From contig NZ_JAJOMX010000001.1 of assembly GCF_024699925.1 (NCBI RefSeq), forward strand, positions 930,001 to 994,000: a stretch of DNA of 64,000 nucleotides, read 5' to 3'. This stretch comes from Mesorhizobium sp. J428. GTDB taxonomy: Bacteria; Pseudomonadota; Alphaproteobacteria; Rhizobiales; Rhizobiaceae. A program made the position numbers and the translations under genes. The notes beneath the pieces were generated by a model. It ran no database searches and was not told the origin of the DNA. It saw only the letters and a list, made by a program, of their open reading frames with translations. Of the stretch, positions 5,901-28,707 are shown piece by piece; position 1 is the first letter of the stretch, and the number at the start of each line of letters is the position of its first letter.

Positions 5901-6435
5901 CCTGCACGCCGGCCGGATTGAGGATCGGCATCATCGTATCGACGAAGAGAAACTCGGTCGCATGCGCGTTCGTGGATGATTCGGCCGTGTGGTCGTCGCC
6001 CATCAGCGCCAGCACGCCGCCATTCTTCGAGGTGCCGGCGAGGTTGGCATGGCGGAACACGTCGCCCGAGCGGTCGACGCCCGGCCCTTTGCCGTACCAA
6101 ACGGAGAACACGCCGTCGTGCTTGCCTTCGCCGAGAAGCTCGGTCTGCTGCGAGCCCCAGACGGCGGTGGCGGCAAGCTCCTCGTTGAGACCGGGCTGGA
6201 AGACGATGCTGGAGGCTTCAAGCTGCTTCTTCGCGCGCCAGAATTGCTGGTCAAGGCCGCCGAGCGGCGAGCCGCGGTAGCCCGAGACGAAGCCTGCCGT
6301 GTCCAGCCCGAGGCGGCGATCGCGTTCGCGCTGCATAAGCAGCATCCTGACGATCGCCTGCGCGCCCGACAGAAAGATTCGTTCCTTGGAAAGGTCGAAC
6401 TTGTCTCCGAGCGTCACATCGTGAAGCGTCATCAA
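2956..6435 (-). CDS. iorAB: Indolepyruvate ferredoxin oxidoreductase, fused IorA-IorB type
   Basis: A 1159-residue protein of the large fused 2-oxoacid:ferredoxin oxidoreductase family, which oxidatively decarboxylates aryl pyruvates from aromatic amino acids to aryl-acetyl-CoA using thiamine diphosphate and iron-sulfur clusters. It begins with the pyrimidine-binding part (GYRGSPLGGLDQQFW), continues with a TPP-binding part (FCSGCPHNSSTKVP, GIGCHFMALWMD), then a cysteine-rich Fe-S stretch (CEGCGDCGVKSNC, SSCNKDFSCVNGFCPSF), and ends with the gamma-type domain (GIGGTGVVTIGAILG). Length fits the proteobacterial fused form. The start is ATG ATG at 6435. Upstream on the same strand is a lipoprotein gene 196 bases away; the GGDEF-EAL gene follows downstream. 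Confidence 0.92.
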   Translation of the reverse strand: MMTLHDVTLGDKFDLSKERIFLSGAQAIVRMLLMQRERDRRLGLDTAGFVSGYRGSPLGGLDQQFWRAKKQLEASSIVFQPGLNEELAATAVWGSQQTELLGEGKHDGVFSVWYGKGPGVDRSGDVFRHANLAGTSKNGGVLALMGDDHTAESSTNAHATEFLFVDTMMPILNPAGVQELIDYGLYGFAMSRFSSTWTAIKCVKDNIESTASVDVSLDRLNIVLPEIDLPPGGLSIRHELDQMGQEERLHVYKRAAAAAFIRANGLNKIIYSGGSAPKIGIITVGKSYLDVRQALDDLGIDEARAAQIGLRLFKVAAPWPLDVEHISEFARGLETVLVVEEKRSLIEVQMRENLYGTAMQPLIEGKKDARGEWLFPAKGALDPNDIAIAIGERVLKKIGHSEEIAARVAQLKQYQAMLADTKDVSNRTPYFCSGCPHNSSTKVPEGSIAGAGIGCHFMALWMDRSTVGFTAMGGEGAQWIGQAPFSKREHMFQNLGDGTYNHSGSLAVRFALASKANITYKILYNDAVAMTGGQPHEGNLTVDMIARQVRAEGVDRIAVVTDEPGKYAGKAEFPAGVSFSHRDDLDAVQRELRDVKGVSVLLYDQTCAAEKRRRRKRGTFPDPDKRVIINELVCEGCGDCGVKSNCVSVQPVETEFGRKRRIDQSSCNKDFSCVNGFCPSFVTVHGAKLRKAEGVASASDPLAGVPEPALFPLGQGGWACVVDGIGGTGVVTIGAILGMAAHLEGKGCGMIDMAGLAQKGGAVFSHVRIAPTPDDISAIRVSAGKADLVLGCDLVVSGAKKVLASAREGRTLFVANTAEVMPGDFTRSTDFSLPTERLKKAIRQAVGDDKAHFFDATRSATTLFGNSVGANMFMLGFAYQYGGLPVSAEAVEKAIELNGEAVKMNVAAFRWGRRAAHDPETVRKLVQSVQGAVAAPLAQTLDEIVAKRVEFLTAYQNAAYARRYAERIDRLRKAEAAAVAGSTAVTETAARNLFKLMAIKDEYEVARLYTDGSFRKQLASQFQDFDRLEFHLAPPILGRKGADGLPRKSSFGPWMMKGFGVLAAFKGLRGTAFDIFGYTAERKMERRLIADYEADLDLIEKHLSPPSVDAAVALASVPALIRGYGHVKMRNVEKARGERARLVDRLVSPPVEPNLQAAE

Positions 6436-6631
6436 CGATCTCCTGCGGACGGCTGGGTATCACCTGACCGCCCTCCGTGGAAGCAGTGTTTCTGTGGCAG
6501 TCGACAACGTCAAACGAAATCAACGCGATCCGCAAAAGAGCAATCGCCGCCACGCATGCGGCTATCCAACGAATATTTTATGTCGTCGGGATGATGGCAG
6601 GCGAAATTTCCTGAGCGGCGATCCGCAGGAA

Positions 6632-7150
6632 TCAACCCCGGCCGGGACAGCCCGCCTCGTTGGTGACGTCGAGCTTGCCGTCGGGACGGCCCTTCAACTC
6701 CGGATTCGGCGTATAGACCGGTCCGACGACGAGGGGGCGATCCGGCAGCACCTCCTGGTCCAGATTGGATGCGATCGTCGTCTCGATTTCCTGCCGCACG
6801 GCGCCGTCCGGTCCCTCGATGCGGATCGCGACCGCGTAGGGATGGTCCTTGCGCACGCAGCGCAGCGGCGGGCTTTCCAGCACCGCCTTGTCGAGCTTCG
6901 GCCAGATCCGCTGCCGTACCACGATCGGCTCGCCGCCGGCCGGATCCTCGAAGCTCGCCACCGCAGTCTGCCCGTCCTCCATCGGCCCCAGCGGCTTGAG
7001 CGTCACCAGATAGGTCGCCGTGGCGACGCGGTAGTTGAAGACGAACAGCTTGCCCGAGATTTCGAACAGCTTGCCGGGACGGCTCTCGTCACGGCATGCT
7101 CCGAGAGCCATCAGTGCGATGGCGACCGCCAAGACGAAAAATCTAGGCAT
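6632..7150 (-). CDS. Putative lipoprotein of unknown function
   Basis: A 172-residue protein with a type II signal peptide: Met-Pro-Arg, a hydrophobic core, and the lipobox ALGAC ending at Cys19. It should therefore be lipid-anchored in the envelope. The mature part is rich in beta-type segments and shows no family I recognise. The start overlaps the stop of the upstream CGNR regulator by 8 bases, so the two are almost certainly co-transcribed and translationally coupled. No enzyme motif is visible. Confidence 0.8.
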   Translation of the reverse strand: MPRFFVLAVAIALMALGACRDESRPGKLFEISGKLFVFNYRVATATYLVTLKPLGPMEDGQTAVASFEDPAGGEPIVVRQRIWPKLDKAVLESPPLRCVRKDHPYAVAIRIEGPDGAVRQEIETTIASNLDQEVLPDRPLVVGPVYTPNPELKGRPDGKLDVTNEAGCPGRG

Positions 7151-25955: not shown

Positions 25956-25970
25956 GAACATATCATGAAC
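25956..25970. promoter_or_regulatory. SOS (LexA) box of the DNA-repair pair
   Basis: GAAC-ATATCAT-GAAC matches the alphaproteobacterial LexA direct repeat GTTC-N7-GTTC read on the other strand, exact in both half-sites and spacing. It ends two bases before the ATG of the radical SAM gene, which has no other ribosome binding site, so LexA binding would block the start region directly. A TATTAAAAT stretch at 25923-25931 could be the -10. Confidence 0.75.
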
Positions 25971-25972
25971 AG

Positions 25973-27208
25973 ATGCCAGCGCCCACAGTTCGCGAAAAGC
26001 TCGCCATCCTCGCCGACGCCGCCAAATACGATGCCTCGTGCGCCTCGTCGGGCGCGGACAGGCGCGACTCGCTGAAATCGGGCGGCATCGGTTCCACCGA
26101 GGCCACCGGCATCTGCCATGCCTATGCGCCGGACGGCCGCTGCATCTCGCTGCTCAAGATCCTGCTCACCAACTTCTGCATCTACGACTGCGCCTACTGC
26201 ATCAACCGCTCGTCCTCGAACGTGAAGCGTGCCCGTTTTACAATCGACGACGTCGTTACCCTCACGCTCGACTTCTACCGCCGCAACTATATCGAAGGCC
26301 TATTCCTCTCCTCCGGCGTCATCCGCTCGCCGGACGAGACCATGGCCGAGATGGTCGAGGTTGGCCGGCGGCTGAGGCTCGACCATGCCTTCGCCGGCTA
26401 CATACACTTGAAGACCATTCCGGAAGCCTCGCAGGAACTCATCGAGCAGGCGGGGCTCTATGCCGACCGGCTGTCGATCAATGTCGAGCTTCCCACCGAC
26501 GAGGGCGTGCAGCGCCTGGCGCCTGAGAAGCGGCCGCAAACCATCCGCCGTTCGATGGCCGGCCTGCGCGAGAAGCTGGACGCGGCGGCCGAGCCGACAT
26601 TGCGCACGAAGCAAAGGCCGCGCTTCGCGCCGGGCGGGCAGTCGACGCAGATGATCGTCGGCGCCGACCCGACGCCGGACGCGACGATCCTGAAGACCAG
26701 CGCTCGGCTCTACGGCTCCTACCGTCTCCGTCGGGTGTATTACTCCGCCTTCAGCCCGATCCCCGATTCGTCCGCTGCGCTGCCGTCGATGAAGCCGCCG
26801 CTGATGCGCGAGCACCGCCTCTACCAGGCAGACTGGATGATGCGTTTCTACGGCTTCGAGGAGCGCGAGATCCTGGCCGGCCGGCCCGACGGCATGCTCG
26901 ATCTCGCCATCGATCCGAAGCTCGCCTGGGCGCTGGACCACCGCGCGATCTTCCCGGTCGACGTCAACCGCGCGCCGCGGGAACTGCTGCTGCGCGTGCC
27001 GGGCCTCGGCACCAAGGCGGTCAAGCGCATCCTCGCCTCGCGCATCCACCGCCGGCTGCGGCTGGAGGACGTCGGACGCGTCTGCCAGTCGATTGCAGCG
27101 GTTCGGCCCTTCATCGTCGCCGAAGGCTGGTCGCCCGGCGGAACGATCGATTCCGAACGCCTGCGCGAGGCGGTGGCGCCGAGGGCCAGACAATTGGAGC
27201 TGTTCTGA
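25973..27208 (+). CDS. Radical SAM protein, putative DNA modification/repair
   Basis: A 411-residue protein of the putative DNA modification/repair radical SAM family (TIGR03916 type). The iron-sulfur ligand motif is Cys-x3-Cys-x2-Cys in NFCIYDCAYCINRSSS. The C-terminal part has a helix-hairpin-helix signature, LLLRVPGLGTKAVKRIL, for DNA contact. The N-terminal AAKYDASCASSG is family-typical. The gene overlaps the next by TGATG, and in many genomes this family is paired with a DUF4130/uracil-DNA glycosylase, as here. The SOS box in front indicates damage induction. The chemistry it performs is not established. Confidence 0.9.
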   Translation: MPAPTVREKLAILADAAKYDASCASSGADRRDSLKSGGIGSTEATGICHAYAPDGRCISLLKILLTNFCIYDCAYCINRSSSNVKRARFTIDDVVTLTLDFYRRNYIEGLFLSSGVIRSPDETMAEMVEVGRRLRLDHAFAGYIHLKTIPEASQELIEQAGLYADRLSINVELPTDEGVQRLAPEKRPQTIRRSMAGLREKLDAAAEPTLRTKQRPRFAPGGQSTQMIVGADPTPDATILKTSARLYGSYRLRRVYYSAFSPIPDSSAALPSMKPPLMREHRLYQADWMMRFYGFEEREILAGRPDGMLDLAIDPKLAWALDHRAIFPVDVNRAPRELLLRVPGLGTKAVKRILASRIHRRLRLEDVGRVCQSIAAVRPFIVAEGWSPGGTIDSERLREAVAPRARQLELF

Positions 27209-28707
27209 TGGGAATGGTCGAGAAGCGCCCGCTCTCCGCGCACCATGCAATCCTGCTCGCGTCCCAGACCGATTTTTCCGGCTGGCGTGAAGCGGCGCGG
27301 GCGATGGCGCTGAATGGGGTCGACCCGGCGGATATTGCGTGGTCGGTGGAGGGCGAGGACACGGGGGACCTGTTCGCCGCACCGCCGGAGTCGACGCCGC
27401 TGCCGGCAATCCCGCCGGGCGCCGAACTCCGTGTCCCCCGTCGCTTCGTCGACCTCGCCGAGGCCGTGATCTGCCATTCCGACCCGGCCCGCTTCGGCTT
27501 CCTCTACCGCATCCTCTGCCGGCTCCAGCGTGAGCCGCATCTGCTCGACGTCGCCACTGATCCCGACGTGCGAAAGCTCGAGGAGATGGACAAATCCGTC
27601 CGCCGCGATATCCACAAGATGCGCGCCTTCGTCCGTTTCCGGCGCATCGCCGACGAAACCGGCGAGCGCTTCGTCGCATGGTTTGAGCCGGCGCATTTCA
27701 TCGTCGAGCGCAACGCACCCTTCTTCATGCGCCGGTTCACCGGCATGCGCTGGACGATCCTCACGCCCCATGCCACGGCCGACTGGGACGGCGAGCGGCT
27801 GGCGATCGGTCCTGGCGCCTCCAAGGCCGACGCGCCGGCCGAGGATGCAGCGGAGGAGCTGTGGCGCACCTATTTCCGCTCGATCTTCAACCCGACCCGG
27901 CTGAAGGTGAAGGCGATGACCGCCGAGATGCCGAAGAAATACTGGCGCAACCTTCCGGAGGCCTCGCTCATTCCTGACCTGATCGCTGGCGCGGAAAAGT
28001 CCGCCCGCGACATGATCGAGAGGATGCCCACCATGCCCGCCCCGCATCATGAGACGGTCCAGGCCAAACACTGGCGCAACCGGCCCGCGGAGACGCAGTC
28101 GGACGGGGCGGACGCGACGTCGATCGCCGAATTGAGGAAGGCCGCCACCGACTGCCGCCGCTGCCCGCTGTGGCGCAATGCCACGCAGACCGTGTTCGGC
28201 GAAGGCCCCGAGGACGCGCGCGTCGTCTTCGTCGGCGAGCAGCCGGGCGACCAGGAGGATATTGCGGGCAAGCCCTTCGTCGGCCCGGCCGGCCGGCTGT
28301 TCGACGCGATCATCGACGAGGCCGGCATCGATCGCGCGACGACCTACGTCACCAATGCGGTGAAGCACTTCAAGTTCGAGCCGCGCGGCAAGCGCCGCAT
28401 CCATTCCAGGCCGAACGCCGGCGAGGTGCAGGCCTGCCGCTGGTGGATCGAGCGGGAGCTGAAGCTGATCAGGCCGGATCTGGTCGTGGCGCTCGGTGCG
28501 ACCGCGGCGCAGTCCCTGCTCGGCAAGGCGGTGCCGATCACAAAGATGCGGGGTCAGACGGTGACGCGGGAGGACGGCCTGAAAGTATTCCTGACCGTCC
28601 ACCCGTCCTACCTGTTGCGCCTGCCGGACGATGCCAAGGCGGCGGAGCGGGAGCGGTTTCTCGACGACCTCAAGCGTGTGAGAACGCTGATGGACGACAC
28701 GCTGTAG
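27208..28707 (+). CDS. DUF4130 domain fused to UdgX-type uracil-DNA binding/glycosylase domain
   Basis: A 499-residue two-domain protein. Residues 1-270 or so correspond to the DUF4130 DNA-metabolism domain (ERFVAWFEPAHFIVE, RRFTGMRWTILTP, YFRSIFNPTRLK). Residues 300-495 are a family-4-like uracil-DNA glycosylase with GEQPGDQED, KPFVGPAGRLFD and VHPSYLLR. The insert RGKRRIHSRP is the loop of UdgX, whose His forms a covalent bond to the sugar after uracil release and so seals the abasic site. Translation is coupled to the radical SAM gene. Together they look like a SOS-induced repair pair. Confidence 0.9.
   Translation: MGMVEKRPLSAHHAILLASQTDFSGWREAARAMALNGVDPADIAWSVEGEDTGDLFAAPPESTPLPAIPPGAELRVPRRFVDLAEAVICHSDPARFGFLYRILCRLQREPHLLDVATDPDVRKLEEMDKSVRRDIHKMRAFVRFRRIADETGERFVAWFEPAHFIVERNAPFFMRRFTGMRWTILTPHATADWDGERLAIGPGASKADAPAEDAAEELWRTYFRSIFNPTRLKVKAMTAEMPKKYWRNLPEASLIPDLIAGAEKSARDMIERMPTMPAPHHETVQAKHWRNRPAETQSDGADATSIAELRKAATDCRRCPLWRNATQTVFGEGPEDARVVFVGEQPGDQEDIAGKPFVGPAGRLFDAIIDEAGIDRATTYVTNAVKHFKFEPRGKRRIHSRPNAGEVQACRWWIERELKLIRPDLVVALGATAAQSLLGKAVPITKMRGQTVTREDGLKVFLTVHPSYLLRLPDDAKAAERERFLDDLKRVRTLMDDTL

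Follow-up and report, generated by a model that had tools for sequence, protein, structure and literature searches.

A radical SAM/DUF4130-UdgX operon of Mesorhizobium sp. J428 with a conserved, predicted LexA box and an accessory UdgX

Introduction

What does a radical S-adenosylmethionine (SAM) enzyme do in the bacterial SOS response, and does it act on the DNA adducts of the uracil-DNA glycosylase (UDG) encoded beside it? These questions are raised by a two-gene locus of Mesorhizobium sp. J428, located in the 64,000-nucleotide stretch analysed here (the window; contig NZ_JAJOMX010000001.1, positions 930,001 to 994,000). One gene encodes a radical SAM protein (window positions 25973-27208, 411 aa), and the other encodes a fusion of DUF4130 to the glycosylase UdgX (27208-28707, 499 aa). 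An earlier note on this DNA had proposed that the radical SAM enzyme may resolve covalent UdgX-DNA adducts under damage control. From comparison of related genomes, we consider it reasonably probable that this is a LexA-repressed operon for an SOS-induced DNA-lesion enzyme composed of the radical SAM protein and DUF4130, in which UdgX would be an optional component and not the substrate.

We take COG4277 to be the TIGR03916-type radical SAM protein of this locus, and CC2333 to be the SOS-regulated COG1573-family protein of Caulobacter. According to the available text of PMC8565304, a two-gene COG1573-COG4277 operon belongs to SOS networks in Bacteroidetes, and earlier work is cited there for its SOS regulation in Verrucomicrobia and Alphaproteobacteria (Caulobacter). 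CC2333 is named among four COG1573-family proteins of Caulobacter in an excerpt of PMC1839093, and DUF4130 is called a predicted mutagenesis-related enzyme in an excerpt of PMC3765255. The physiological role of UdgX is described as largely unknown in the accessible sections of PMC10359453, which suggest RecA-dependent pathways or proteases for adduct resolution. An SOS-regulated radical SAM protein mentioned in part of PMC7739468 could not be tied to the TIGR03916 family, and the available portions of PMC10776899 and PMC12907096 held nothing on the radical SAM/DUF4130-UdgX pair. A joint literature search on UdgX and radical SAM yielded no paper, and the literature searched contained none giving the reaction of the TIGR03916 family. 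The pairing and its SOS control are not new, since the families are named in NCBIfam and the regulation is covered in the available text of PMC8565304; by its sequence features, the locus appears to be a genuine SOS operon of a known but uncharacterised type.

Results

The predicted LexA (SOS) box GAACATATCATGAAC was read directly from the letters at 25956-25970 (all features given here are on the forward strand), and only AG at 25971-25972 separates it from the ATG of the radical SAM gene at 25973. At the other end of this gene, TGATG (27206-27210) overlaps the stop codon with the next ATG at 27208 and joins both genes. The earlier note had described both the 2-base gap and the coupling correctly. 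GAAC-N7-GAAC (GTTC-N7-GTTC) is stated to be the alphaproteobacterial LexA motif in the available text of PMC8565304, and a box of this form is present at the promoter. TGATG coupling was also found in 43 of 80 related alphaproteobacterial loci; the nearest loci among the named relatives were from Aminobacter, Aliihoeflea and Mesorhizobium, with 79-80% identity.

The bare presence of a loose GAAC-N7-GAAC within the window was not beyond chance, with 2 matches compared to 1.45 expected and at least 2 in 45 of 100 shuffles. GAACATATCATGAAC is significant because of its position, AT-rich spacer and conservation. The whole genome contained 176 loose matches, compared to 64 for a reversed control. 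The strict form GAACATANNNNGAAC (GAACATA-N4-GAAC) occurred at 4 sites in the 5.88-Mb genome, and its reversed control at none. The 4 sites were at the radical SAM/DUF4130 operon, at the start of dinB (locus L281; DNA polymerase IV, 732 bits), upstream of ssb (L282; distance 121 bases), and at a glyoxalase-like open reading frame (ORF). In addition, lexA of the same genome carries the loose box GAACACATATCGAAC. The glyoxalase-like ORF, a small ORF of the glyoxalase/vicinal oxygen chelate (VOC) fold 18 bases from its strict site (L280, 1679-2023; contig position about 3856000), is perhaps an unlisted SOS gene.

Of the 80 named alphaproteobacterial loci, 77 had an exact GAAC-N7-GAAC between -300 and +40 of the radical SAM gene, compared to a background of 22 matches in the remaining 1.05 Mb of locus sequence, window included (0.007 per 340 bases). 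The 3 loci without an exact box (L026, L030, L041) each had a site with one mismatch. A second alphaproteobacterial genome set, which may share genomes with the first, had the exact box at the operon in 59 of 59 genomes; this count excludes G045, for its short contig, and the genome that the window comes from. The 136 pooled boxes comprised 121 forward and 15 reversed, their spacers were 80% A+T, and their distances to the gene varied. Because the boxes occur in both orientations and at differing distances, they point to selection rather than passive inheritance.

The alphaproteobacterial type of box was found in 0 of 29 non-alphaproteobacterial Pseudomonadota loci. Of these 29 loci, 24 had CTG-N10-CAG at that position, as did 0 of 558 background windows, when 13 or more of 20 letters had to agree with TACTGTATATATATACAGTA; 22 of the 29 loci reached at least 15. 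We take TACTGTATATATATACAGTA to be the beta/gamma LexA consensus. Since unrelated operators stand at the same operon, SOS control seems to have been retained, or acquired anew, while the LexA motif changed. Chance as the origin of the box was ruled out by its conservation in relatives, the second motif in non-alphaproteobacterial loci, and the genome count of strict sites. The conserved alphaproteobacterial boxes, the unrelated LexA-type motif elsewhere, and the company of dinB, ssb and lexA in the Mesorhizobium genome are sequence evidence that strongly supports placing the operon under SOS control, as the earlier note had predicted.

We then counted the 3 families in 398 Pseudomonadota genomes, where all counts depend on the family cut-offs. 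TIGR03916 (radical SAM) was over its cut-off in 84 genomes, TIGR03915 (DUF4130) in 87, and TIGR03914 (UdgX) in 78. DUF4130 was present in 84 of 84 radical SAM genomes; in 8 of these, a distance of over 250 bases separated the 2 matches. Only 3 genomes (G373, G389 and G458) had DUF4130 without radical SAM. UdgX over cut-off was present in 63 of the 84 radical SAM genomes and missing from 21, while radical SAM was missing from 15 of the 78 UdgX genomes. A quick tree built from the 84 radical SAM proteins required 9 or more switches between having and lacking UdgX (G552 scored as without). UdgX matches over cut-off numbered 83, of which 64 were fused or adjacent to DUF4130 and 19 were not beside a DUF4130 over cut-off. 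Excluding 3 of the 19 (a piece at a contig edge in G367, the divergent DUF4130 fusion of G491, and a remnant in G250) left 16 stand-alone UdgX genes, and an SOS box near the start was found for 0 of these 16. Among the 80 named alphaproteobacterial loci, 16 were without UdgX in the sequence examined, one of which ends at a contig edge. The Caulobacter vibrioides control genome matched all 3 families. Family members were also found in Bacteroidota and Bacillota records: the Bacteroides ihuae control genome matched TIGR03916 and TIGR03915 and did not match TIGR03914, and a 255-aa DUF4130 protein without UDG was found in Phocaeicola (L098).

The loop histidine of UdgX was retained in 210 of 211 UdgX rows, some of which are duplicates of one genome. 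In G552, which is one of the 21 genomes above, UdgX is fused but degenerate, with AGQPG in place of GEQPG and the loop histidine lost. The radical SAM gene, DUF4130 and a LexA-type box (18/20) are all intact in this genome. Across the genomes compared, the near-obligate radical SAM-DUF4130 pair is the constant core of the operon, with which the SOS boxes go, and UdgX is a dispensable accessory.

Natural deletions were found in 3 genomes of family f148 (G373, G389 and G458), all of which lost the radical SAM gene and kept the SOS box. In G389, the MP-[KR]YW segment of DUF4130 was also lost and UdgX was intact; in G458, DUF4130 was truncated and there was no UdgX over cut-off. Only the box, the DUF4130 tail and UdgX were left in G250 (family f1). 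Based on these 4 genomes, DUF4130 tends to decay after loss of the radical SAM gene and UdgX can persist. The remnants in f148 and G250 make UdgX adducts a less likely substrate for the radical SAM enzyme.

The radical SAM protein matched TIGR03916 (rSAM_link_UDG) with 559.2 bits (curated NCBIfam cut-off 343.5), and this was its sole NCBIfam match at E 0.001. The second protein matched TIGR03915 with 224.9 bits (curated cut-off 112.25) over residues 19-252 (27262-27963) and TIGR03914 with 343.8 bits (curated cut-off 189.95) over residues 254-491 (27967-28680). The DUF4130 domain also matched PF13566 (136 bits) and gave a confident structural model (mean predicted local distance difference test, pLDDT, 90). 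TIGR03916 is by definition the partner of TIGR03915 or TIGR03914, and the adjoining gene at 27208-28707 matches both. Both proteins fit the NCBIfam set (putative DNA modification/repair radical SAM protein; putative DNA repair protein; UdgX family) with no structural difference. The genome-level split of UdgX from the radical SAM-DUF4130 core and the placement of the SOS box are what is added here beyond that set.

The UdgX part aligned to the solved UdgX structure 6ail with 189 bits over residues 301-489. The sequence hallmarks of UdgX were kept, namely GEQPG with its glutamine (E344 and Q345, 28237-28242), the loop histidine H399 of KRRIH (28402-28404), and the HPS motif (HPSYLLR). GEQPG and KRRIH upheld the assignment of the second product to UdgX in the earlier note. 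Structures 6ail, 6ajo and 8iie are of Mycobacterium smegmatis UdgX, which has GEQPG and KRRIH in common with the UdgX of the window; unlike it, the latter is fused behind DUF4130 and is an operon-mate of a radical SAM gene. The available text of PMC10359453 also names this species and is our source for the role of its H109, the equivalent of H399.

The radical SAM protein contains the motif CIYDCAYC (C69, C73 and C76; 26177-26200), preceded by an N-terminal module of C23, C48, H49 and C57 (26039-26143) with putative auxiliary Fe-S ligands. The module was kept in 177 of 177 radical SAM rows with a sister protein from Gemmatirosa (L102) set aside, and its residues are proposed to be ligands of an auxiliary Fe-S cluster. 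The sister is without the module. It was the only sister-family example among the matches listed, so a single outgroup underlies the tie of the extra cysteines to DUF4130. A C-terminal helix-hairpin-helix (HhH)-like motif spans residues 328-357 (26954-27043). The DNA-contact motif that the earlier note had named is therefore likely but weak: it matched Pfam HHH_3, below the gathering score.

No relatives of DUF4130 with solved structures were found by sequence (best profile-search hit E 0.23, a ribosomal protein), and none were significant for the radical SAM protein. In Foldseek, DUF4130 had no significant match to the DHH/DHHA1 phosphoesterase superfamily, to which RecJ, Cdc45, PAP phosphatase and family II pyrophosphatase belong: the best E was 0.045, and no hit reached 0.001. 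The window DUF4130 domain has no DHH motif, and the letters DHH occurred anywhere in 8 of 120 rows. A kinship of DUF4130 with this superfamily is a lead only.

When the ORFs of the 80 named loci were clustered and the 40 largest clusters inspected by eye, only the two genes recurred; the other shared ORFs near the operon were lineage synteny or antisense frames. Some layouts had genes inserted. In L201, a hemerythrin-like ORF lies between the end of the radical SAM gene (2788) and the start of DUF4130 (5785), with the same placement in L206, and a beta-helix-like and a cytochrome-like ORF were also seen by eye between radical SAM and DUF4130 in both loci. In L202 (G557), a cytidine/deoxycytidylate-deaminase-like gene (PF00383; 2779-3276) sits between radical SAM and DUF4130-UdgX. 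Viral scans yielded one radical SAM locus (L107) and none for the Gemmatirosa sister. L107 has an exact GAACGTATATCGAAC box upstream of its radical SAM gene (5001) and a hemerythrin-like ORF straight after it (6273-6782), the only such ORF that was profiled, which matched PF01814; this viral contig is probably cellular DNA. A contig labelled Acinetobacter phage (L106, CAKLQH020000003.1) holds glyQ/glyS with a gene layout as in an A. baumannii plasmid record, and is probably bacterial DNA.

Discussion

Several observations weigh against an SOS-controlled radical SAM-DUF4130 core. The recA locus of the Mesorhizobium genome has no exact box, and the counts from the 2 alphaproteobacterial sets are not fully independent. 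The LexA-type box was missing in 5 of the 29 non-alphaproteobacterial loci. In 3 of these, from family f174, lexA has its own box TTAGTAGTAATACTACTAA and the radical SAM promoter has none such; in the other 2, the lexA-like match was under the cut-off (G526) or the LexA match was only partial (G253). As to the core itself, there was no DUF4130 within 6 kb in 2 named loci (L033 and L045) and none on the L107 fragment. G373 lost only the radical SAM gene and has an intact DUF4130-UdgX, and in G491 (L264) a second, divergent DUF4130-UdgX fusion has its own LexA-type box TACTGTATATCCATACAGTA with no radical SAM match in the flanking sequence. Given these last 2 genomes, DUF4130 may act alone at times. 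The HhH-like stretch scored 21.2 bits against a gathering score of 27. The f174 loci (L203, L204 and L208) share a perfect palindrome, TCTCATCCAATGAGA, upstream of radical SAM, where other lineages have the LexA box; it was not found at the lexA promoter of the f174 genomes.

Other explanations were weighed against the same data. Resolution of covalent UdgX-DNA adducts by the radical SAM enzyme, as put forward in the earlier note, would fit the frequent fusion or adjacency of UdgX to DUF4130, the translational coupling of the genes, and the nearly invariant loop histidine. We nevertheless consider it highly improbable, because many genomes have either protein without the other, the 16 stand-alone UdgX genes have no nearby box, UdgX is intact in G389 after loss of radical SAM, and the available text of PMC10359453 suggests RecA-dependent or protease resolution. 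As the main function of the enzyme, adduct resolution was rejected on this distribution together with the naturally degenerate UdgX of the otherwise intact G552 operon. The second proposal of the earlier note, that the enzyme acts on another modified base, may still hold. A base-excision system induced by SOS and centred on the glycosylase, with radical SAM as its accessory, agrees with the presence of UdgX in most radical SAM genomes, and the available text of PMC8565304 describes COG1573-COG4277, which corresponds to this gene pair and also has LexA-type control, as a putative system for base excision repair by UDG. In our census, however, the UDG part was the dispensable one and DUF4130 the constant partner, and the Bacteroides ihuae and Phocaeicola examples are without it, so we find this reading unlikely. 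Some DUF4130-only proteins (such as P0148 and P0181) are named uracil-DNA glycosylase, although these could be fusion fragments. For groups without UdgX, our results as a whole suggest that the UDG-repair label of the operon stems from annotation.

The core could instead carry out a direct reversal of a thymine-derived photolesion like that of spore photoproduct lyase, with DUF4130 recognising the lesion. SOS control would suit such an activity, but the radical SAM protein returned only TIGR03916, no spore-photoproduct-lyase chain was among the solved structures listed for it, and it has 3 extra invariant cysteines; we consider the proposal unlikely. The least probable reading is that of an operon for DNA modification or defence, with SOS regulation by happenstance. 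The class-level distribution is patchy (radical SAM family over cut-off in 10 of 190 class genomes) and the radical SAM gene is on 158 plasmid records, 58 of them from Phaeobacter, both of which speak for this reading. Unrelated LexA-type boxes in different lineages and the lack, in the ORF clusters inspected, of a recurrent neighbour beyond lineage synteny are evidence to the contrary, and a defence system was rejected as PADLOC gave no match.

In the reading we favour, that of a two-component radical SAM-DUF4130 lesion enzyme, LexA would repress the operon as one transcription unit until DNA damage releases it, as the conserved boxes suggest. The radical SAM subunit combines a CxxxCxxC cluster, the conserved N-terminal cysteine module and a HhH-like DNA contact near its C-terminus, and would use a 5'-deoxyadenosyl radical to act on a nucleotide that is damaged or modified. 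DUF4130 would be its obligate partner, most likely a DNA-holding or substrate-presenting subunit. UdgX, an optional module gained and lost repeatedly, may through covalent binding to uracil or abasic sites target the complex there or shield those sites, and would not be a substrate of the radical SAM enzyme. A more specific version is doubtful: the operon may represent an undescribed radical DNA repair in the SOS response of many bacteria, with an extra Fe-S cluster on the 3 N-terminal cysteines, DUF4130 as a degenerate RecJ/Cdc45-like DNA holder that lost DHH, a substrate that arises from damage and is not uracil, and UdgX added for uracil/abasic targeting.

The operon matters because its radical SAM family, found in 84 of the 398 Pseudomonadota genomes sampled, is SOS-linked. 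The question for this family shifts from UdgX adducts to the radical SAM-DUF4130 core, for which the DUF4130-only operons and those of the G552 type, with a UdgX without catalytic residues, are informative natural variants.

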